Shown: piece by piece, positions 53,654 through 64,000 of the stretch
Layout: each line of letters begins with the position of its first letter
Position numbering within the stretch: position 1 is the first letter of the stretch
From: Fidelibacterota bacterium
GTDB lineage: Bacteria; Marinisomatota; Marinisomatia; SCGC-AAA003-L08; GCA-002719095
Length of the DNA: 64,000 bases
Direction: 5' to 3'
Assembly: GCA_002705575.1 (NCBI GenBank)
Contig: PAHI01000042.1
Coordinates: forward strand, 1-64,000
Program-made: the position numbers and the translations under genes
The notes under the pieces: generated by a model
The model's database searches: none
What the model saw: only the letters and a program-made list of their open reading frames with translations
Told to the model about the DNA's origin: nothing

Positions 53654-54329
53654 TGTAACTTTTTTTAGCGATTATAATAACGTACTCACCTTTAATAATA
53701 AAATCTTTCTCTAATTTCAAGATAACGCTATCAAAAGTACCAAATATATTTGCTTCATTTATTTTTGTCAACTCTTTGCAAATAGATATAGAACGATTAC
53801 CCATCACAGGCCTTAAATCTTTAAGTGTTTTTAAAATTCTATTTGGAGATTCAAATAAAATGATAGTTGTATCTAAAGCTGATAATTCAGCAATTCTAGT
53901 TTTACGCCCTTTTTTTTTGGGCAAAAAACCTTCAAAAAAAAATCTTTCAGAAGGCAACCCAGATACACTTAAGGCAGCAACTAATGAGCTAGGACCCGGC
54001 ACTGTAAAAACATTTATGTTATTATGCCTTGCTTTATTTACTAACAGATAGCCTGGATCACTAATACATGGAGACCCAGCATCTGAAACCAAAGCAACAT
54101 TGCTTCCATCTAACATTAGAGATAGAATATCATGAACTTTATAATTCTCATTTTTAAGATGCAAAGGAATCATTTTATTACTTATATTATATTTTTTAAG
54201 AAGCCTTCTCGTAATTCTAGTATCCTCTACTGCGATACAATCAACATTTTTAAGCGTTTCAATAGCCCTTAAGGTTATATCTTCTAGATTTCCAATAGGA
54301 GTGCTTACTACATACAATGAGCCAATCAC
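53643..54329 (-). CDS. rsmI: 16S rRNA (cytidine1402-2'-O)-methyltransferase
   Basis: 228 aa. SAM-dependent tetrapyrrole-methylase fold enzyme modifying C1402 of 16S rRNA. LYVVSTPIGNLEDITLRAIETLKNVDCIAVEDTRITRRLL is the signature, followed by LVSDAGSPCISDPG and VPGPSSLVAALSVSGL, and FEGFLPKKKGR. The family is usually about 280 aa. This is a shorter form without the C-terminal extension. It overlaps the aminotransferase stop by one base. The identity is good. Confidence 0.93.
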   Translation of the reverse strand: MIGSLYVVSTPIGNLEDITLRAIETLKNVDCIAVEDTRITRRLLKKYNISNKMIPLHLKNENYKVHDILSLMLDGSNVALVSDAGSPCISDPGYLLVNKARHNNINVFTVPGPSSLVAALSVSGLPSERFFFEGFLPKKKGRKTRIAELSALDTTIILFESPNRILKTLKDLRPVMGNRSISICKELTKINEANIFGTFDSVILKLEKDFIIKGEYVIIIAKKSYNES

Positions 54330-55687
54330 TAATTCAAAATTTCCTTTATTGATTTATGAATCATATCGATAGCATAGTCCAATTCTTGTTTAGTAACTGT
54401 CAAATGAGGTCTAAATCTTACAGTATAATCACCAGAAGACAATATTAACAATTTATTTTTATAAGCTTGTGATATAACTCTATCTCTCTCTGTTGATGAT
54501 GGCAAGTCAAATGCGCAAAAAAGACCGCTTCCTCTAGAATTAGAAACAAAACCTGGAAAAGAAGACTCTAAAAAACGCATTTTTTCCATCAAATAATTAC
54601 CTTTAGAGCTAGCATTGTCTAACAAAGATTCTTTTTTTATAGTTTCAAGAATAATTCTAAAACGAACCATATCTACAAGACTGCCTCCAAAAGTTGAATT
54701 GATACGACTAGACTCTGAAAAAACATTTTTTTCTACTTCAAGAACTCTATTTCCTGCAAGCATGCCACAAACTTGAGTTTTTTTACCAAAGGATATAATA
54801 TCTGGAATAGGAGCCTTCTTAATAGTAGTATCACACCTGCATAAATTAGGAGTAAAGTGCTGGTGTGCCCACATTTTTCCTGTTATACCTATACCAGTCT
54901 GCACTTCATCGTATATAAGTAAAAACTCATTATCTTCTGATAAATTTTTTAGCTTTTCAAAAAACTGACACCTAAAATGATTATCTCCACCCTCCCCTTG
55001 AATAGGTTCTATAATTAAACCTGCAATTTTATTAGGGTTTAATTTAATGGCATCTTTAATTTGAGAAATAGCTAAATCTTCTTTTACTTTAACTTTCTCA
55101 ATAACTTCATCTGTTATAGGAAAGCTTAAATACGGATTGTCAATACGTGGCCAATCAAATTTTGGGAAATACATTGTTTTTCGTGGATCTGAAGTATTAG
55201 TCAATGATAATGTATACCCCGTCCGACCATGAAAAGCCTGTTTAAAATGAATTATTTTCATATCTTCATCTACACCTATCCCCTTCTGCATATTCTTTCT
55301 TATTTTCCAATCAAATGCCGTTTTCAAAGCATTCTCAACAGCCAGACCTCCTCCTTCAACAAAAAATGCATTATTAATATATTCAGGTATTGCAATTTCA
55401 TTAAAAGTTTTCATAAAATCTGCATATTGCGTACTATAAATATCTGATAGAGTTGGTTTAAAAAGAGACACTTCAGCTAGCTTATCTTTTTGTGCCAATA
55501 TTTCTGGATGATTATAACCAATAGCACCTGACGCATACATTGAAAACATATCTAAATACTCTGCACCATCTCTAGCATCTACCAACCATGAATCATGAGA
55601 TTTAACTAAATCTATTATAGGCTCAAAACCATCTGCTAAAATATTATTTGACAAAACTTCTCTGACTTTTCTAGGTTTTACTGACAT
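54329..55687 (-). CDS. lat: L-lysine 6-transaminase (lysine epsilon-aminotransferase)
   Basis: 452 aa, class III PLP aminotransferase. The opening VREVLSNNILADGFEPIIDLVKSHDSWLVDA and the PLP site SFGKKTQVCGML, with Lys302, closely match actinobacterial Lat. DEVQTGIG (260-267) binds the cofactor. It removes the epsilon-amino group of lysine to 2-oxoglutarate, giving 2-aminoadipate-6-semialdehyde. The next gene upstream encodes the ALDH7-type dehydrogenase that would oxidise this product, which strongly supports the assignment. The gap is 2 bp. Alternative: another omega-aminotransferase. Confidence 0.9.
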   Translation of the reverse strand: MSVKPRKVREVLSNNILADGFEPIIDLVKSHDSWLVDARDGAEYLDMFSMYASGAIGYNHPEILAQKDKLAEVSLFKPTLSDIYSTQYADFMKTFNEIAIPEYINNAFFVEGGGLAVENALKTAFDWKIRKNMQKGIGVDEDMKIIHFKQAFHGRTGYTLSLTNTSDPRKTMYFPKFDWPRIDNPYLSFPITDEVIEKVKVKEDLAISQIKDAIKLNPNKIAGLIIEPIQGEGGDNHFRCQFFEKLKNLSEDNEFLLIYDEVQTGIGITGKMWAHQHFTPNLCRCDTTIKKAPIPDIISFGKKTQVCGMLAGNRVLEVEKNVFSESSRINSTFGGSLVDMVRFRIILETIKKESLLDNASSKGNYLMEKMRFLESSFPGFVSNSRGSGLFCAFDLPSSTERDRVISQAYKNKLLILSSGDYTVRFRPHLTVTKQELDYAIDMIHKSIKEILN

Positions 55688-55689
55688 TT

Positions 55690-57210
55690 TTACTCCAAAT
55701 TAAATTTAATTCCTTGAGCCAAGGGAAGATCTAAGCTCCAATTAACTGTGTTTGTTTGTCTTCGCATATAAGCCTTCCATGAATCAGAACCAGACTCTCT
55801 TCCACCTCCAGTATCTTTTTCTCCTCCAAAAGCACCTCCAATCTCTGCACCTGATGTCCCTATATTTACATTTGCAATACCGCAATCACTACCCATAGCA
55901 GATAAGAATTTTTCTGAATTTATAACGTTATTTGTAAAAATTGAAGAAGATAGCCCTTGCGAAACATTGTTATGCTCTTTTATTGCTTCATCCATATTTT
56001 CATATTCTATTAAATATAATATAGGTGCAAATGTTTCTTGTTTTACAATTTCAAAATGACTTTCAGCCTTAATAATTGCAGGTTCCACAAAAGACCCTTT
56101 AAGTGATTCAAGCTTACTACCTCCATACAATAATTCACCTCCTTGACTTAATGCATTTTCAATAGCATTCAAATAACCATTTACAGCATCCTTATCTATT
56201 AGTGGTCCCATAAGCGTATCAGGTAATAATGGGTCGCCTATTTTAACCTGCTTATAAGCAGCAACCAGCTTATTTGATATTAAGTTAAATTGATTCTTAT
56301 GTATGAAAACTCGCCTTGTAGAAGTACATCTTTGACCTGCTGTTCCTACTGCTCCAAATACAATGGCAGGAATCACAAGATCAAGATTACTATCTTCATC
56401 AACTATAATACCATTATTTCCACCTAACTCAAGAATAGTTTTTCCTAATCTGGATCCGACTTTTTGTGCAACGATTTTTCCCATTTTAGTAGAACCTGTA
56501 GCAGAAATCAATGGTATTCTTCTATCACTAACTATTTCTTCACCTATATTTGAATCTTCTCCAATTATAAGATTAAAAATACCCTTATAACCATTTTCTA
56601 TAAGGACCTCGTTGCAAATATTTTGTACAGCAATAGCACATAAAGGAGTTTTCAAAGAAGGCTTCCAAATAACAACATCACCACAAACAGCAGCAATAAA
56701 AGCATTCCAAGCCCATACAGCCATAGGGAAATTAAATGCTGTTATAACTCCAACTATACCTAAAGGATGCCATTGTTCATACATACGATGATTAGGTCTT
56801 TCAGAATGCATTGTAAGTCCATACAATTGCCTTGATAGACCGACAGCAAAATCAGCAAGATCAATCATTTCTTGAACTTCTCCATCACCCTCTGATTTAA
56901 TTTTTCCCATTTCATACGATATTAAGCTCCCTAGTGAATCTTTATGCTGTCTAAGCTTTAGTGAGATTTGATAAATAAGCTCTCCTCTTTTAGGAGCCGG
57001 CAACATTCTCCATGATTTGAATGCTTTTTGTGAAGCTAATACGATATCTGAATAAATAGCTTTATCTGCAATCTGAACATCAGATATTCTATCTAAAGAT
57101 CCTGGGCTATATGACGTGAAGGATTTATTTTTACTACAATCAATCCATTTTTTACCTCCAATACAAGCCCCGCTATTAATTTTTTTTATTCCTAAAGATT
57201 CTAGATTCAT
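55690..57210 (-). CDS. alpha-aminoadipate semialdehyde dehydrogenase (ALDH7 type)
   Basis: 506 aa aldehyde dehydrogenase. NAD-binding ITAFNFPMAVWAWN, GSTKMG, catalytic Glu261 in ELGGNNGIIV and nucleophile Cys295 in GTAGQRCTSTRR are all present. The C-terminal FGGEKDTGGGRESGSDSWKAYMRRQT matches the ALDH7 (antiquitin-like) group. It oxidises 2-aminoadipate-6-semialdehyde, the lysine aminotransferase product, to 2-aminoadipate. It sits with the transaminase at a 2-bp gap, as a two-gene lysine-catabolic unit. The substrate is inferred from the pair. Confidence 0.9.
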   Translation of the reverse strand: MNLESLGIKKINSGACIGGKKWIDCSKNKSFTSYSPGSLDRISDVQIADKAIYSDIVLASQKAFKSWRMLPAPKRGELIYQISLKLRQHKDSLGSLISYEMGKIKSEGDGEVQEMIDLADFAVGLSRQLYGLTMHSERPNHRMYEQWHPLGIVGVITAFNFPMAVWAWNAFIAAVCGDVVIWKPSLKTPLCAIAVQNICNEVLIENGYKGIFNLIIGEDSNIGEEIVSDRRIPLISATGSTKMGKIVAQKVGSRLGKTILELGGNNGIIVDEDSNLDLVIPAIVFGAVGTAGQRCTSTRRVFIHKNQFNLISNKLVAAYKQVKIGDPLLPDTLMGPLIDKDAVNGYLNAIENALSQGGELLYGGSKLESLKGSFVEPAIIKAESHFEIVKQETFAPILYLIEYENMDEAIKEHNNVSQGLSSSIFTNNVINSEKFLSAMGSDCGIANVNIGTSGAEIGGAFGGEKDTGGGRESGSDSWKAYMRRQTNTVNWSLDLPLAQGIKFNLE

Positions 57211-57219
57211 AAATACTCC

Positions 57220-58101
57220 TTAAATATTATCACTTACTTTACTGCTACTTTTTTTAATAGAAAAATAGCCTATAAGAATTAACACCACAATCACTAAAGA
57301 ACCTATTGCCCCATAATAGTAGTCACCTCCGCTAAACTTAATCAAATCATCAAATCTTCCGATTAACAATGAAATTCTACCCATTACAGTAAAACCAAAT
57401 GAAGCACCAAACGAAATCATAAGAAAATATATTCCAACTTTACTTATTTTGCCCAATGCCCCTTCATGTTTTTTTGAAAAAAAGAAATAGACCAATGCGC
57501 TAATAGTTCCTACAATAAGAATCATACTATTTATAAAAGATACTGGGTCAGTTAATGATAAATCATTCTTAACTCCTTGAACTTGTGCCAAAATATCAGA
57601 ATTCAAATAACTAAATGCTCTTAATCCTGCAAAAACACCTACAATATATGCAATTGAATACCGTGCTAACCAAGATAAAGATGGAATCAATCTAAAAAGC
57701 ATTAAAACACCTAACGCAAGAGGAATAAGGTAACTAATGTAAATTGTAGGCTCTTTAGAAGATATATCTATACCGCCTTCTGTCAATAAGGTTGGACTTA
57801 CTGCTCCAAATAACGTTGTTATATTATACCCAAGATTATAAACCCCATACCATATTTCAATTAAGATATTACTATCATTATTTTCAGGTAATTTTGGCCA
57901 TAATTTTCCAATTAGACTTGGACGTAAAAATTGCCAATAGGCCAAAACAAGACCATAGCCTGCAGATACACCAGCAAACAAATGTTCAGCTGCTTTGTAC
58001 AAAGGATTATCATTAAATAAGAAACTAAATATAGCTAACGTCAGAAACGCAGATATCCACGCAGTCAGAATATCAGCACTAGTTATTTCTAGCCCTGTCA
58101 T
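57220..58101 (-). CDS. multi-pass membrane protein of the MutL cassette, unknown
   Basis: 293 aa with about eight transmembrane helices. Notable features are EHLFAGVSAGYGLVLAYWQFLRPSLIGKLWPKL near the N-terminus and ISFGASFGFTVMGRISLLIGRFDDL near the C-terminus. The paired small-residue glycines in the latter suggest tight helix packing. It overlaps the next gene upstream by 4 bp. No family is recognised. It could be a channel or the membrane base of a complex with the three proteins upstream. Confidence 0.65.
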   Translation of the reverse strand: MTGLEITSADILTAWISAFLTLAIFSFLFNDNPLYKAAEHLFAGVSAGYGLVLAYWQFLRPSLIGKLWPKLPENNDSNILIEIWYGVYNLGYNITTLFGAVSPTLLTEGGIDISSKEPTIYISYLIPLALGVLMLFRLIPSLSWLARYSIAYIVGVFAGLRAFSYLNSDILAQVQGVKNDLSLTDPVSFINSMILIVGTISALVYFFFSKKHEGALGKISKVGIYFLMISFGASFGFTVMGRISLLIGRFDDLIKFSGGDYYYGAIGSLVIVVLILIGYFSIKKSSSKVSDNI

Positions 58102-58931
58102 CTATCTTCCTTTCTTTTAATAATATAAGTAATGTTACCAATAATAATTAAAATGACAATTAACAAGTGTGCAAAAGATTGTGGCGTCATATTCTTTGAT
58201 GCAGGACCAAAATCTCCAACTAAGCTTTCATAGCTAGCAGCGCCCGATAAACCTGCCAGTATTCCTTTTAGCTGACCATTATTAACATAAGGTAATAATT
58301 CTGTTACCTGAACTGCAGTTACACCAGTAGTAACATTTATTTTTTTACCATTACAAGCTGCCTCACTTTGATCTCCTGCAAACTGAACCCACTCTTTAGA
58401 GCCCGGACTTCCAGCAGAGAAAGAAACAATAAAATCATAATCACATAAATTTTTTATACTATCTTTTACTTTAGGAAATATCTTTGGAATATCAGACAAC
58501 ATTCCTTTTATAACAGCTTCTCCACCTGGAGCATATCCCAACTGAACTATTCTTTTATTAAGATTAATATTTGATTCTAATAGTAATGAATCTTTTTTAA
58601 CCCTATCTATTGTTTGAGTAATCATGCCTAAACCAGTAGGAAAAAGGGCAACCAAGTGAACTTCATTATCAGTTAATAAAACCTGCTTCATAATAGCGAA
58701 TGACATCGGTCCAAGTTCAGGCTCTGTACTAGGTCCATAATCGAAAGAAAGAAGTATTCTTTTATTGGGCTCTTTAAATGTGTTAGATATTGAATTATAC
58801 GCAGTTTGTGCATAATCATCAGGAGCAATTGGCATCTCTAATTCAACAATCATCGGAGTTATAACCGCTATAGCTAAAAGAAGATATATAATTCTCCTGT
58901 CAATATTACTTAAAATTTGAAGCGCTTTCAT
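58098..58931 (-). CDS. membrane-anchored protein with large extracytoplasmic domain, unknown
   Basis: 277 aa. One helix near the N-terminus (about 13-30) and one near the C-terminus (about 248-268) hold a soluble domain of about 210 residues. The domain begins KRILLSFDYGPSTEPELGPMSFAIMKQVLL and contains GYAPGGEAVIKGML, FIVSFSAGSPGSKEWVQFAGDQ and GILAGLSGAASYESLVG. The alternating strand/helix pattern suggests a Rossmann-like fold. No catalytic motif is recognised. It overlaps the multi-pass gene by 4 bp and abuts the next gene. Confidence 0.65.
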   Translation of the reverse strand: MKALQILSNIDRRIIYLLLAIAVITPMIVELEMPIAPDDYAQTAYNSISNTFKEPNKRILLSFDYGPSTEPELGPMSFAIMKQVLLTDNEVHLVALFPTGLGMITQTIDRVKKDSLLLESNINLNKRIVQLGYAPGGEAVIKGMLSDIPKIFPKVKDSIKNLCDYDFIVSFSAGSPGSKEWVQFAGDQSEAACNGKKINVTTGVTAVQVTELLPYVNNGQLKGILAGLSGAASYESLVGDFGPASKNMTPQSFAHLLIVILIIIGNITYIIKRKEDR

Positions 58932-59840
58932 TTATTCACCTAGAAATGATTTATCTTTACCAAAAATAATTCTCAATGATGTTGCAACTATTCCTAAAGC
59001 AACGCCTATCATAATAGCTTTTTTTCCTGCGACAGTAGGATAAGCTATAATCCAAAACAATACAGATTTAGAATTTAAAAATGTAGGATTCCAAAAAAAC
59101 ATAGAAAACCCTAACAAAATACATGACACTAAAAAAGATTTAATCAACATATCTTTAGATTTAAACAATGGAGATATAAATGCAAATAAAAGAGATAGCA
59201 ATATAAAAACAAATATCCAAGAAGGGATATATGCCCCTATAGGAACAGCACCAATCATAACAAGAACTCCTGCTGTAAGCAATAAAGATGCTTCAAAATT
59301 TCTTATTCTAAATGCTCTATAAGAAGCAGAAGCAACAAAAAATGCCAATAAAGCAAACATAGTTGCATCCAAGGGATAAAAAAGAGAATTAAACATCCAT
59401 GAAAACAACGAATCCGGGTGCTTAATGTGATCTCCCCATACTCCATCTGTAAACCCTTCACCTTCATCCCAAGTTTGATTATTATTAATATCTATAAACT
59501 CTTCACCTTCATCCCATACTTCATTTCCTATAGTCTGCGTACCATGATAAAAAAAGCCAGAAAAAATCATCAAGAAAAATCCTAGAATCAGAATGAAACT
59601 ATACTGAAAATCATTTTTTTTCATAAAAATTTTAAAGAAATGCATCTTTAGTAGATTAAAAGCACCTAAAAAAATTGCAAAAGCTGCAATAATATCAAAC
59701 CATAACAAAGAATCTTCTTCAACCCATGTTCCAATAGATTCTATCTTAATAAAATGTGCTAGCAAGGTTAGCATTCCAATGCTAACCATAATAATAACAG
59801 GAAGCTGTCTCTTAAAGAACATTAGGTGTAAATCCACCAA
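58932..59840 (-). CDS. multi-pass membrane protein with Asp/Asn-rich insert, unknown
   Basis: 302 aa with about eight transmembrane helices. Between the third and fourth (residues 108-135) sits a hydrophilic loop with WDEGEEFIDINNNQTWDEGEGF, resembling calcium-binding repeats. The loop faces the side opposite to the first cytosolic segment, so it is likely extracytoplasmic. No family is recognised. It is encoded with a 19-bp overlap with the DUF6754-like gene, inside the cassette with the MutL-like protein. Confidence 0.65.
   Translation of the reverse strand: MVDLHLMFFKRQLPVIIMVSIGMLTLLAHFIKIESIGTWVEEDSLLWFDIIAAFAIFLGAFNLLKMHFFKIFMKKNDFQYSFILILGFFLMIFSGFFYHGTQTIGNEVWDEGEEFIDINNNQTWDEGEGFTDGVWGDHIKHPDSLFSWMFNSLFYPLDATMFALLAFFVASASYRAFRIRNFEASLLLTAGVLVMIGAVPIGAYIPSWIFVFILLSLLFAFISPLFKSKDMLIKSFLVSCILLGFSMFFWNPTFLNSKSVLFWIIAYPTVAGKKAIMIGVALGIVATSLRIIFGKDKSFLGE
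59436..59519 (-). repeat. Asp/Asn-rich WD-GE repeat in a membrane protein
   Basis: Two units of the same pattern as in the S41 protease (W-D-E-G-E-x-F-x-D-x-N-x-N-x-x-W-D-E-G-E) occur in the loop of the protein at 58932..59840, a protein with no other similarity to the protease. Confidence 0.8.
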
Positions 59841-60673
59841 AAAGTTACATTAAATAAAACAATAACAAGCATTGCAGTAATTATAAATAATTTTATAATA
59901 TCTTGACCACGAACGCTTCCTAATAAATCTTTCCTATCAGATAGTATCGCGCTTGCAGTCAAAAATTCCTCTCCAATCAATGTATAATCACAAGCAGTTA
60001 CAAAAAATGGGATTTGAGAAGATGAGCCTGTACCTGCTATTTGGATTGCACCAATTCTATTACCTGTTTCTGCCAACAACAAAGATTCGGCATAAAACTT
60101 TCCTTGATATAAACAAGCTGCTGGTTTTTCTCTTACCATTATTCCATTTATACCAGCAGCATATGCAAATTGATCTTCAGCAAGATAGTGAACCATATCA
60201 TTGTGATACAAATCAGGCCTACCTATTTGGAGATAAGATTCTTTGCAAATCTCTCTTGCCGCCTCCATTACAATTGACTTAGAAACAGGTACATTAAGAG
60301 AAGTTTCATATTCAGCTGTAATTTTAGCAACATGCCCTAATATATTAATTCCAGCAATAGTTTCTACTTCGTTTAAATCTAATATGCCAGGAACAAACAA
60401 AACAGGCTTGCCCATTTCAGTTGCTCTGCCAACAGCTTCTTCCATCGCTTTGATTCCAGGTATATCTCTAATAAAAACCTTATTACCAGACTCAGCCCAA
60501 AAAACAGATATCATTAAAATATTCGATACAAATATTAATAAAAAGAACATAAGAGAACTATCAGCGTTAAAGAAGAAATTAATCCAATAAATATCAACAA
60601 TATAAAAACCCATTATAAGAACGCTTATTCCAATTGTTGCTACAATCTTAATATTATTAAATAAATTACTCAT
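59822..60673 (-). CDS. membrane-associated protein, possibly DUF6754
   Basis: 283 aa. Two N-terminal helices (about 10-28 and 35-55) and one C-terminal helix (about 262-280) frame a cytosolic-looking domain. That domain begins IRDIPGIKAMEEAVGRATEMGKPVLFVPGI and has ETIAGINILGHVAKITAEYETSLNVPVSKSIVMEAAREIC and AGTGSSSQIPFFVTACDYTLIGEEF. From memory this recalls DUF6754-type proteins, of unknown function, but I cannot verify it. It overlaps the genes on both sides, so it is an integral member of the cassette. Confidence 0.6.
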   Translation of the reverse strand: MSNLFNNIKIVATIGISVLIMGFYIVDIYWINFFFNADSSLMFFLLIFVSNILMISVFWAESGNKVFIRDIPGIKAMEEAVGRATEMGKPVLFVPGILDLNEVETIAGINILGHVAKITAEYETSLNVPVSKSIVMEAAREICKESYLQIGRPDLYHNDMVHYLAEDQFAYAAGINGIMVREKPAACLYQGKFYAESLLLAETGNRIGAIQIAGTGSSSQIPFFVTACDYTLIGEEFLTASAILSDRKDLLGSVRGQDIIKLFIITAMLVIVLFNVTFWWIYT

Positions 60674-60923
60674 TACTTTGACTTTCTATTTCAGATATAA
60701 AATACTCAATATTATTTCGTTTAGACAAAATATTGGAAATTTGGTAATATTTTTTACGGTTCAAAAATATTGTTGCTAGCGGACCAAATACAATCATTGA
60801 CTGACTAAATATAAAAGATAAATACTTAAACATTTCCAAAAAAAATACAGCTGGAACAGACATTTTTTTATCTATTACTTTTTTTACATATAAGCTCATA
60901 ATCTGTTTTTCTGAAGAATTCAT
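60666..60923 (-). CDS. small membrane protein of the MutL cassette, unknown
   Basis: 85 aa with one strong hydrophobic segment (about 24-52) and charged ends. It overlaps the upstream end of the DUF6754-like gene by 8 bp and lies 1 nt after the KOW-like protein. It might be a small subunit or assembly factor. No homologue is recognised. Confidence 0.55.
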   Translation of the reverse strand: MNSSEKQIMSLYVKKVIDKKMSVPAVFFLEMFKYLSFIFSQSMIVFGPLATIFLNRKKYYQISNILSKRNNIEYFISEIESQSNE

Positions 60924-60924
60924 G

Positions 60925-62019
60925 CTACTCTAAAATTATCTCAAGATTAGCCCTAGGAACAAGCTTTCTTTCATTATTTTTAAATTCTATTTTTGCAACC
61001 CTCGCTTTTGTCTCTGAATCAATTTTAACAGGCTCAGATGGCAGCTGTTTGACAACTCCAATCTTACCAAAATAAGGACTTCTGATTACTCTAACTTTTG
61101 AACCTTCACTTATAATTAAATCTTCCTCCTTAAATTCTTGTAATACCGGTGATTGATTAATATCAGTCACTATAACTTCAGGGCGAATAACTCCTGCTCT
61201 AATTTGAGTTGCTCCATTAATAGATGCATTTTTACCAATATGACCTTTAAGCAAATTATAAGTTTTATCAGACATTTGTACATCTCCAAAGCCCTCTGTA
61301 ATCATTAATGTCGTAGGGATAGATTCTGTCCCTGTTATAGCAACTCCTAATCTATATCCTAAAATATCGCTCAATGATTGGTAATCAAATCCTCCTGCTA
61401 CAATACCTACCACACCTTTTTCTGAATATATATCATACTGAGATTTATTAATTGAATCTCTGAAAACTAGAATTTTATCCTTATAATCCTTTGGATTTTC
61501 ATCTAAAAATATTAACTCTCCGTTTTTTTCAGACCCTACTCCAATTATACCTTGAATTAAAGACCCCCTCGATTGAATAACAACTCCCTCATCTTTAATA
61601 ATTTCAACAACTTCACCATTAATATACGCATCTATATCAACAGAAACTTCAGGTTCAGATATCATAATTTGACCTGTTGTGATTGATACATTAGAAATCT
61701 TTCCATCAATAGGACTCTTAACTTGTGTTTTGAAAAAACCAAACAAACCATTATTTTCAGCGATTACATCACCTTTATTTATCTCTTGGTCGATTTTAAC
61801 TGTTAAATATTCCTTGATTGATTGGGCATCAATATTTAACTGGCTAGCAATATTAAGCATATGAATATTCCCAGGTAAGTATGTAGAAGCTACAATTTTA
61901 GAATTCTCAACAAAGTCTCCAATTTTACAATTAATACCTCCTTTTAAAGGAAGCTTTCTTTCTTTTTTTATTTTTGTATTTTTTAATATTTTTAATCCTG
62001 GAGTATAAGACTTCGACAT
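60925..62019 (-). CDS. soluble protein with lipoyl-like and KOW-like segments, unknown
   Basis: 364 aa, no membrane segment. Residues about 75-130 (EINKGDVIAENNGLFGFFKTQVKSPIDGKISNVSITTGQIM) look like a biotinyl/lipoyl hammerhead (SBHM), but lack the modified-lysine EAMKM. The final 60 residues (EGSKVRVIRSPYFGKIGVVKQLP onwards) resemble a KOW/NusG-type SH3-like barrel. The middle contains IGVGSEKNGELIFLDENP. The combination is unfamiliar to me. It directly precedes the MutL-like gene by a one-base overlap, so a link with that ATPase is likely. Confidence 0.6.
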   Translation of the reverse strand: MSKSYTPGLKILKNTKIKKERKLPLKGGINCKIGDFVENSKIVASTYLPGNIHMLNIASQLNIDAQSIKEYLTVKIDQEINKGDVIAENNGLFGFFKTQVKSPIDGKISNVSITTGQIMISEPEVSVDIDAYINGEVVEIIKDEGVVIQSRGSLIQGIIGVGSEKNGELIFLDENPKDYKDKILVFRDSINKSQYDIYSEKGVVGIVAGGFDYQSLSDILGYRLGVAITGTESIPTTLMITEGFGDVQMSDKTYNLLKGHIGKNASINGATQIRAGVIRPEVIVTDINQSPVLQEFKEEDLIISEGSKVRVIRSPYFGKIGVVKQLPSEPVKIDSETKARVAKIEFKNNERKLVPRANLEIILE

Positions 62020-63842
62020 TATATACTATAGACCTTTGTTTTTTTATACCATTCTTTAATTTTTTCTTTATTTTTTATTATAATTTGATTGTCAGAATCT
62101 TTTATTCTACCATCAAATAAAATACCTACTTCTCCACCATATATTCTTGCTTCAATTTTTTGCCCAAAACCATTGCCTAAATTAACATTGTTTTTAGGCA
62201 TTAAAATTATATCTATAGGCTCATAAGGAATCGCTAGCAATTCTAAATCATGAGATTTTATTGTTCCTGTATAATTTTTATTGTTATAAGAAAAAGAGTA
62301 ATCAAATAGATCAAATTCTCCAGATTTATTTTTAATTATTGGGTTTATACTTGTTCCCAATCTAATAAGGCAATCTCTATCAAATACCTCTAAAGCTGCA
62401 TCAGGATGGATACTCGATAAAACGCCTAGTTGAGGCATCATAAAAATTGAATCTACAGCTATTTGAGTTATGCCTATAGGATTAAAAGAATCAACCATCA
62501 TTAAAAAGGATTGATTCCTTCTAGGGGCATGAGACAATACTCCTCCAGAACCAACAATTAAATCTAACTCCAGCATATCTACTAAAGTTTTCCCAGATGA
62601 ACTTTGCTTAAATGCATCAGATATTGTTCTTTCTTGCTGAACTCCTTTTAAAGATACTGCAAATTGTTTATGCTGAAGGAAGGATAAATTTAATGCTTCT
62701 CTAGCTAATGATTGTTCAATTATAAGCTCTTCCATACTTTGAGGAATTGTAGTAGGCCTTATCATTTTATTTGCAATTCTATTTGTCAAATCTACTTCAT
62801 CAATTTTAAAAGGAAGCCACCTAGATATTGAGTCGTAGCCAGATTCTGCCAACACATTACATATAGAATAACTCATACCTAAATTAGCGCTTACAGTTCT
62901 ATTAAAAATACCTTTAAAAACTGAAAAAACATCTGTTGTTGCACCTCCAATATCTACACCAACTACAGATATATTATTCTTGTCAGCTATTTTTTTTATT
63001 ATCTGACCAACAGCTCCTGGGGTTGGCATTATGGGCGCATCTGCCCAACTCATTAATTTTTCATACCCTGGAGCTTGGGCCATTACATGCTCCATAAATA
63101 AATCATGTATTTTATCTCTGCTAGGCTGCAAATTCTCTATTTCAAGCTTTGGTCGAATATTGTCAACAATTTTAAGGTCAGTAATATCACCTAGCTTAGA
63201 ATCTATATCTTTTATTGCTTTTTTATTACCTGCGTATATTATTGGAATTTTAAAATCTAAACCTAATCTAGGCTTAGGATTCGCTGATTCAAGAATTTCA
63301 GCAAGCTTAACAACATGAGACACAGTACCTCCATCAATTCCGCCTGAAAGCAATATCATATCAGGCCGTAAATCTCTTATTTTTTTAACTTTTTCATGAA
63401 ATAATCTTTTATCATTAGACGCAAGAATATCCATAACTATTGATCCTGCTCCTAAAGCTGCTCTTTGTGCACTCTCAGCTGTCATAGACTTTACAACTCC
63501 TGCAACCATCATTTGCAATCCACCTCCTGCTGAGCTAGTAGAGATGTATACATCGACACCTTCATTATCAGATTTGAAACCTACTTTATGTTCATTTCTA
63601 ATTGAAGAAGTAATTATCTTATCTTTATTTAAAATTTTTCGGCCAGAAAGCTCCTCTATTTCAATAATAGAATTAATTACTCCTTTAGTTACATCTTCAA
63701 AAGGTTCCTCAACAGTTGTAGGAGCTTCACCTCTGAATGTTAACTGAAATTCGCCTTTTATTTTTTCAATAAGAATAGCTTTTGTTGTTGTTGAGCCACA
63801 ATCAGTAGCTAAAATAGTTACGATATTTTCAGTATTAATCAT
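62019..63842 (-). CDS. glutamate-mutase-accessory-type MutL (ASKHA ATPase-like) protein
   Basis: 607 aa. [13 protein letters not shown] (12-24) is phosphate-1 motif of the actin-like ATPase fold, and [13 protein letters not shown] (294-306) is phosphate-2. [18 protein letters not shown] and [18 protein letters not shown] complete the MutL/GlmL family pattern. Relatives accompany adenosylcobalamin-dependent mutases such as glutamate mutase and aminomutases and probably maintain the cofactor. Here no mutase subunit is near. Instead the protein heads a row of membrane proteins. It is not the mismatch-repair MutL. The ATG overlaps the cdsA stop (ATGA). Confidence 0.88.
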
Positions 63843-64000
63843 AATAAATTATTTAAATATAAAAAAATATACAAAAATGGTGCAGCAAAACTGAGTGAAT
63901 CAAATCTATCTAAAATACCACCATGGCCTTGCAATATACTGCTTGTATCTTTTATTCCCATATCTCTTTTTAATAAAGATATAGACAAATCTCCAATTTG
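63839..64000 (-). CDS. cdsA: C-terminal end of phosphatidate cytidylyltransferase (runs off the right edge)
   Basis: 53 codons plus stop on the minus strand: [18 protein letters not shown], then [18 protein letters not shown] and a final hydrophobic helix. The GD-x-x-x-S-x-x-KR-x-x-x-KD and GHGG-x-LDR-x-D signature identifies CdsA, which makes CDP-diacylglycerol for phospholipid synthesis. The rest lies beyond the window. It overlaps the MutL-like gene start by 3 bp. Confidence 0.92.

Follow-up and report, generated by a model that had tools for sequence, protein, structure and literature searches.

The closest described relatives of the protein discussed here are GlmL and Or-4, MutL-type proteins of family PF13941 that are accessory to glutamate mutase and D-ornithine aminomutase, and that carry conserved nucleotide motifs; in the PilM-PilNOP, GspL, and FtsA systems, a cytosolic protein of the actin fold is attached to an envelope complex. 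We analyzed a run of seven genes on contig PAHI01000042.1 of a Fidelibacterota bacterium (GCA_002705575.1; positions 1-64,000 of the forward strand, 64,000 nucleotides in all, hereafter the window), labeled g1 (MutL) to g7 in cassette order, g4 being the DUF6754 gene (Table 1). Like GlmL and Or-4, the cassette MutL belongs to PF13941 and has the conserved nucleotide motifs; unlike them, it i) forms a separate clade, has a longer C-terminus, and scores below the GlmL and Or-4 cut-offs; and ii) goes with membrane genes and in some cases forms one protein with g2. The likeness to PilM-PilNOP, GspL, and FtsA is one of analogy, an ASKHA-fold cytosolic protein with several inner-membrane partners. 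We conclude that the seven genes belong to one conserved, co-inherited system, and we put at roughly 60% the probability that they encode a single inner-membrane machine in which a MutL-g2 ATPase-adapter drives, assembles, or resets a trans-membrane module.

MutL follows DUF6754 in two phyla. Among 148 genomes from the phylum of G011 (locus L053, labeled Phycisphaerae; taken as Planctomycetota), 37 carry both MutL and DUF6754, 2 DUF6754 only (G057 and G068), 2 MutL only (G139, and G059 with a weak match of 102 bits), and 107 neither, for totals of 39 with DUF6754 and 39 with MutL over cut-off; among 100 Marinimicrobia, the phylum of G001 (L002, Neomarinimicrobiota), the corresponding numbers are 63, 0, 2, and 35 (Fisher p = 5e-30 and 6e-25, respectively, by tests that ignore relatedness among genomes). 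In the two Marinimicrobia with MutL only, MutL adjoins g2, on a 3.4 kb contig in G231 and on a 12.5 kb contig in G244, where g3 runs to the contig end. Gene g7 occurs in 38 of 39 DUF6754-positive and none of the 13 DUF6754-negative Planctomycetota tested, also when unlinked, as the genes of this phylum often are: DUF6754 and MutL lie 2.9 Mb apart on a contig of G165 (about 1.1 Mb if circular), and DUF6754, MutL, and g7 are at three separate places in G048. All 8 sampled Marinimicrobia genomes of at most 1.0 Mb (sizes rounded) carry DUF6754 and MutL, and a stretch from one of them (L111) holds all seven genes plus a cdsA-like gene; in a third phylum, that of G004, a search on DUF6754 only found it in 11 of 13 genomes. 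The initial annotation had proposed that the seven genes form one system, and co-occurrence in two phyla together with the ordered blocks described below bears this out; homologs scattered without co-occurrence were not found, since genes that are scattered in some genomes still co-occur.

A DUF6754 profile scan of the genome collection matched at least 585 stretches, 581 of which were confirmed; the best 80 loci alone were retained for analysis, so this sample is biased toward close relatives. These loci were chosen by DUF6754 alone, family profiles were iterated on their open reading frames (ORFs), and gene-order counts take labeled genes only. At all 65 of the 80 loci that extend at least 3.5 kb beyond the DUF6754 gene, g4-g5-g6-g7 stand in this order; MutL-g2 lies within the locus at 46 of the 58 with more than 4 kb upstream, the other 12 being L032, L037, L038, L044, L048, L052, L057, L059, L060, L061, L063, and L077. 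The order 1234567 is found at 29 loci and 3124567 at 15, and ten loci carry two or three 4-5-6-7 blocks. Loci are labeled (labels can err) Neomarinimicrobiota, Zixiibacteriota, Planctomycetes, Latescibacterota, Eisenbacteria, Caldithrix, Riflebacteria, Fermentibacteria/Aegiribacteria, Coatesbacteria, Celaenobacter, and Methylomirabilis; L059 is labeled Puniceispirillum, and L043, labeled Gemmatimonadetes, groups in one phylum with L045, labeled Latescibacterota. The block is interrupted twice in L044:10786-16372, labeled Caldithrix: about 2.4 kb separate g4 from g5, and 1.6 kb separate g6 from g7. A small gene encoding hydrophobic stretches directly precedes g3 at 14 loci (L028, L032, L037, L038, L050, L054, L056, L064, L066, L067, L069, L070, L071, and L080) and, by eye, also at L115; it is PH-like at best, with a bPH_6 match below cut-off in just one (L069) of the four scanned.

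MutL and g2 are paired by natural fusion. Both proteins, at full length, are joined into a single one of 1003 amino acids in L114 and 1006 in L115, beside g3 and g4, and L114 goes on with g5-g6-g7. Two genes resembling, by eye, a restriction-modification pair come after the MutL-g2 fusion and g4 in L115:1485-5424 (genome G236); no g5-g7 follow g4 in this stretch, to which the search of G236 for these three genes was confined. Diverged stand-alone MutL-g2 fusions at L097:4047-6953, L098:3732-7007, and L099:4275-6749 have no membrane genes within the fetched stretch; that of L097 adjoins ABC-permease-like genes (by eye), and that of L099 matches FtsA at E = 0.0055, below cut-off. A tree for which the program issued a long-branch warning groups 54 cassette and 6 unlinked MutLs in a single clade (95/99), with the diverged fusions branching next and three GlmL/Or-4 types falling outside.

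A single MutL can be accompanied by several DUF6754 genes. Of 30 genomes, ten contain 4-6 DUF6754 matches, some fragmentary, and their MutL counts are 1, 0, 1, 1, 1, 1, 1, 2, 1, and 1, a single MutL in eight of the ten. Seven multi-DUF6754 genomes are labeled Zixibacteria and one Eisenbacteria; G010 (L052, Zixibacteria, labeled chromosome) has five DUF6754 matches and no MutL match. Such copy numbers, several to one, suggest specialized modules that have a motor or reset factor in common.

Pfam cut-offs are reached by g1 and g4 alone among the seven proteins. MutL matches PF13941 at 411 bits (cut-off 27) over residues 10-491, with a C-terminal extension of about 115 residues past the Pfam domain, and its segments DCGSTTTK (14-21), DIGGATTD (297-304), and SGGVLSHAP (432-440), which we take to be the phosphate and adenosine motifs of ASKHA ATPases, are invariant in 16 aligned sequences 55-70% identical to that of the window; with its nucleotide-binding motifs intact, g1 is predicted to be an ASKHA ATPase. 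Against PHROGs, g1 gave a weak 'partition protein' match alone. The lipoyl/KOW-like label first given to g2 proved right but weak (Biotin_lipoyl_2, RnfC_N, and KOW, all sub-threshold in Pfam), and the DUF6754-like label for g4 was secure (PF20539, 359.4 bits, cut-off 27, a family described as a domain of unknown function). The g3 profile matches at 54 of the 80 loci and in the window. Against Pfam, g3, g5, and g6 gave nothing at E ≤ 1, and g7 only DUF2976 at E = 0.089. At least four of the five proteins beyond MutL-g2 are membrane proteins.

AlphaFold2 models of g4 and g6 (pLDDT 92.2 and 95.7, respectively) place a Rossmann-like domain between transmembrane (TM) helices in the former (residues ~71-246) and between two flanking TM helices in the latter; lysine plus arginine counts suggest that the g4 domain is cytosolic and the g6 domain extracytoplasmic, on opposite sides of the membrane. 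The folds may be likened to the Rossmann-like ones of Sir2, CODH epsilon, RCK, and PGK; identity is 11%, no function is implied, and the cassette domains differ in sitting between TM helices. Helices and strands follow the same order in g4 and g6, but hhalign gave probabilities of 2.8% for whole alignments and <1% for trimmed cores, and we therefore do not claim sequence homology between them; none was found between g5 and g7. The five Foldseek matches listed for g6 at E ≤ 0.001 comprise four proteins resembling trehalose-phosphate synthase and a methyltransferase, which we take as generic (TM-score ≤ 0.34 throughout). Solved structures searched with the g1 sequence and with profiles of g1, g2, g4, g5, g6, and g7 yielded no relative better than E = 0.05, except for FnIII (titin-like) chains that match an N-terminal extension of g4 relatives. 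In the family alignments, H255 and N266, both located in the second TM helix of g6, are invariant, as are D31, N32, E39, Q173, R242, and R249 of g7. The real start of g5 is probably the ATG at 59822, because relatives begin 'KR.IP'; the Asp-rich loop by which g5 was initially characterized is missing from short relatives such as that of L043 (226 residues), and is thus lineage-specific rather than a feature of the family.

How such a machine might work can be sketched. MutL would be a switch of the ASKHA type whose conformational changes are driven by ATP; it would dock, along with its adapter g2 and possibly also g3, on the cytosolic Rossmann domain of g4; the g4-g5-g6-g7 module would span the membrane with the second Rossmann domain, that of g6, outside; and ATP binding and hydrolysis by MutL would assemble, energize, or reset this module, which could thereby move or sense a small ligand across the inner membrane. 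The duplicated g4-g7 block would probably confer specificity for the substrate, with MutL-g2 as the motor or reset factor that the modules share; an energizing or gating role, as initially suggested for MutL, is possible. Weighing against a single machine is the observation that beyond the 80-locus set the g4-g7 block can be split. We wish to stress that a wider proposal, namely a new class of ATP-energized envelope machines in which a MutL-type actin-fold ATPase and a barrel-sandwich adapter drive interchangeable four-protein modules coupling cytosolic and extracytoplasmic Rossmann domains, used by Marinimicrobia, Planctomycetota, Zixibacteria, and further phyla and retained by genomes as small as 0.8-1.0 Mb, is possible but decidedly tentative.

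Table 1. Cassette genes and the adjoining cytidylyltransferase gene (window positions).
Feature	Positions	Strand	Evidence
g1, MutL-type ASKHA protein, 607 aa	62019..63842	-	PF13941, E = 7.7e-123
g2, soluble adapter, barrel-sandwich/lipoyl-like hairpins, KOW-like C-terminus, 364 aa	60925..62019	-	sub-threshold Pfam
g3, small hydrophobic/amphipathic protein, 'VPA.FFLE..K.LSF' family, 85 aa	60666..60923	-	profile matches
g4, DUF6754 membrane protein, 283 aa	59822..60673	-	PF20539, E = 1.1e-107
g5, multi-pass membrane protein, 302 aa from TTG	58932..59840	-	family alignment, block position
g6, two TM helices around Rossmann-like domain, 277 aa	58098..58931	-	AlphaFold2, alignment
g7, multi-pass membrane protein, 293 aa	57220..58101	-	alignment, tracking of DUF6754
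CdsA-type cytidylyltransferase, C-terminal end	63839..64000	-	PF01148, E = 4.8e-21 over 53 residues

All seven ORFs were recovered at the coordinates and on the strand initially assigned, with neighbors overlapping or at most 1 bp apart: g1 and g2 overlap by 1 bp, g2 and g3 are separated by 1 bp, g3 and g4 overlap by 8 bp, g4 and g5 also overlap, g5 and g6 abut (0 bp), and g6 and g7 overlap by 4 bp. The run does not begin at MutL, as had been supposed: the final 162 bases of the window encode the C-terminal end of a CdsA-type protein, and the stop of its gene and the ATG of MutL share 4 bp. The CdsA family is found at 27 loci, at 24 of which it overlaps MutL or lies within 100 bp of it; cdsA is part of the same gene run as MutL and a putative member of the system.

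Because PF13941 includes the mutase-linked GlmL and Or-4, and MM_CoA_mutase (PF01642) is found somewhere in 25 of 30 cassette genomes, the cassette MutL might instead be the reactivating chaperone of a B12-dependent mutase encoded elsewhere, with the membrane genes as unrelated neighbors. We strongly disfavor this reading and regard it as extremely improbable: i) MutL tracks DUF6754 in two phyla, not MM_CoA_mutase, and in Planctomycetota PF01642 (101 of 148 genomes) occurs in 19 of 39 genomes with DUF6754 and 82 of 109 without (odds ratio 0.31, p = 0.0045), so that mutases, common as they are, are not required; ii) 25 cassette genomes without PF01642 (20 Planctomycetota and G007, G016, G017, G020, and G025) also lack glutamate mutase E (PF06368), lysine and ornithine aminomutases not having been searched genome-wide; iii) B12-binding proteins are present in all 25, only two such proteins in eight of them; the pair in G164 consists of MetH, which is over cut-off, and one protein whose matches to radical-SAM models fall below their cut-offs, and the one checked in G075 is MetH; iv) in G020, the MutL near a mutase subunit is a different one of 445 residues, nearest Or-4 but below the Or-4 cut-off and one gene from OraE, while a third MutL in G007 lies 2.7 kb from a methylaspartate-mutase S-type subunit, so that both genomes have mutase subunits missed by PF01642 and PF06368; and v) g1 scores below cut-off for GlmL (NF040745, 227.8 of 475 bits), Or-4 (NF040744, 218.3 of 600), and the GlmL family (TIGR01319, 173.6 of 204.05). 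The cassette MutL is thus independent of MM_CoA_mutase and glutamate mutase E, the two kinds of B12 mutase that were tested, in keeping with the different role first proposed for it. The accompanying remark that no mutase is visible held at the locus, where none of the seven proteins matches a mutase or B12-binding family in Pfam or NCBIfam, but not genome-wide. No MM_CoA_mutase lies within 20 kb of MutL or DUF6754 on the same contig in the 30 cassette genomes, many of whose assemblies are fragmented, and the nearest match to a cassette gene is about 23 kb away (G002). In L096:4627-5352, a DUF6901 protein (E = 6.1e-63) is encoded between D-ornithine aminomutase OraE and an Or-4-like MutL.

Other readings keep the seven genes together but assign them another task. 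An envelope or lipid role is hinted at by neighboring genes, and a machine for moving, flipping, or sensing phospholipids or precursors of lipids would accord with the cdsA-type gene next to MutL, a YegS/DAGK-type lipid kinase cluster at 15 loci, plsX-fabH past g7 at five Phycisphaerae loci, and Lnt near a lone g7 in L106. Neighbors are, however, lineage-specific by eye (glycine-cleavage-like genes in Fermentibacteria, ppdK-like genes mainly in Zixibacteria, an ABC transporter in L047 and L073), plsX starts 378-485 bp beyond g7, the PH-like calls upstream of g3 were made by eye, and no lipid-binding fold was found; we treat the lipid genes adjoining the cassette in two lineages as a lead, not evidence, and consider a lipid machine unlikely, if worth keeping in view. 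Less credible still is a ligand-gated channel or signaling complex with Rossmann sensors on both sides, like the RCK-gated potassium systems. A redox or ion-translocating complex related to Rnf/Nqr is suggested by the sub-threshold barrel-sandwich likeness of g2 to RnfC and NqrA (RnfC_N at 20.2 bits, cut-off 25.6) and the RnfC_N/NQRA_N matches in fused relatives, but barrel-sandwich hybrids occur in many unrelated proteins, the other six window proteins match no Rnf/Nqr subunit, and the seven include no flavin or Fe-S family; we think this very improbable. A single machine driven or reset by MutL-g2 remains our preferred reading.

As a described system, we rate the cassette as new; its proteins fell outside GlmL/Or-4, Rnf/Nqr, and PilM/FtsA (none of the seven matches PilM, FtsA, PilN, or PilO in Pfam at E ≤ 1). 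In mechanism, it could still turn out to be a variant of the envelope complexes driven by actin-fold proteins. The term DUF6754 was absent from the literature searched, whose coverage excludes subscription journals, and searches on MutL and glutamate mutase, PF13941/PF20539/glmL, ASKHA reactivases, and conserved clusters of Planctomycetes turned up nothing that looked relevant among the matches listed. The passages of PMC5167688, PMC10632474, and PMC12283558 on these terms do not show the cassette system, and the MutL of the first is the mismatch-repair protein. Cassette markers are present in 63 of the 100 Marinimicrobia and 39 of the 148 Planctomycetota sampled, yet the libraries searched assign them no function. 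MutL-family proteins are expected to serve B12 mutases; the cassette runs counter to this, and a mutase-based label on such genes would therefore mislead; the layout of one ATPase with several modules, together with the fusions, yields concrete, testable predictions of interaction.

Genes of other kinds also adjoin the cassette. ExbB/ExbD-type genes lie near it in two large planctomycete genomes (L112:15512-17259 and L113:1702-2981), one ExbD being confirmed by Pfam and the others called by eye. In the window an ALDH gene, that of an L-piperidine-6-carboxylate dehydrogenase (NF050084), starts 9 bp past g7; together with an L-lysine 6-transaminase gene (TIGR03251) it occupies positions 54329-57210 (- strand), both proteins scoring over NCBIfam cut-offs and forming a lysine-degradation pair; the ALDH cluster is present at 14 fetched loci besides the window.

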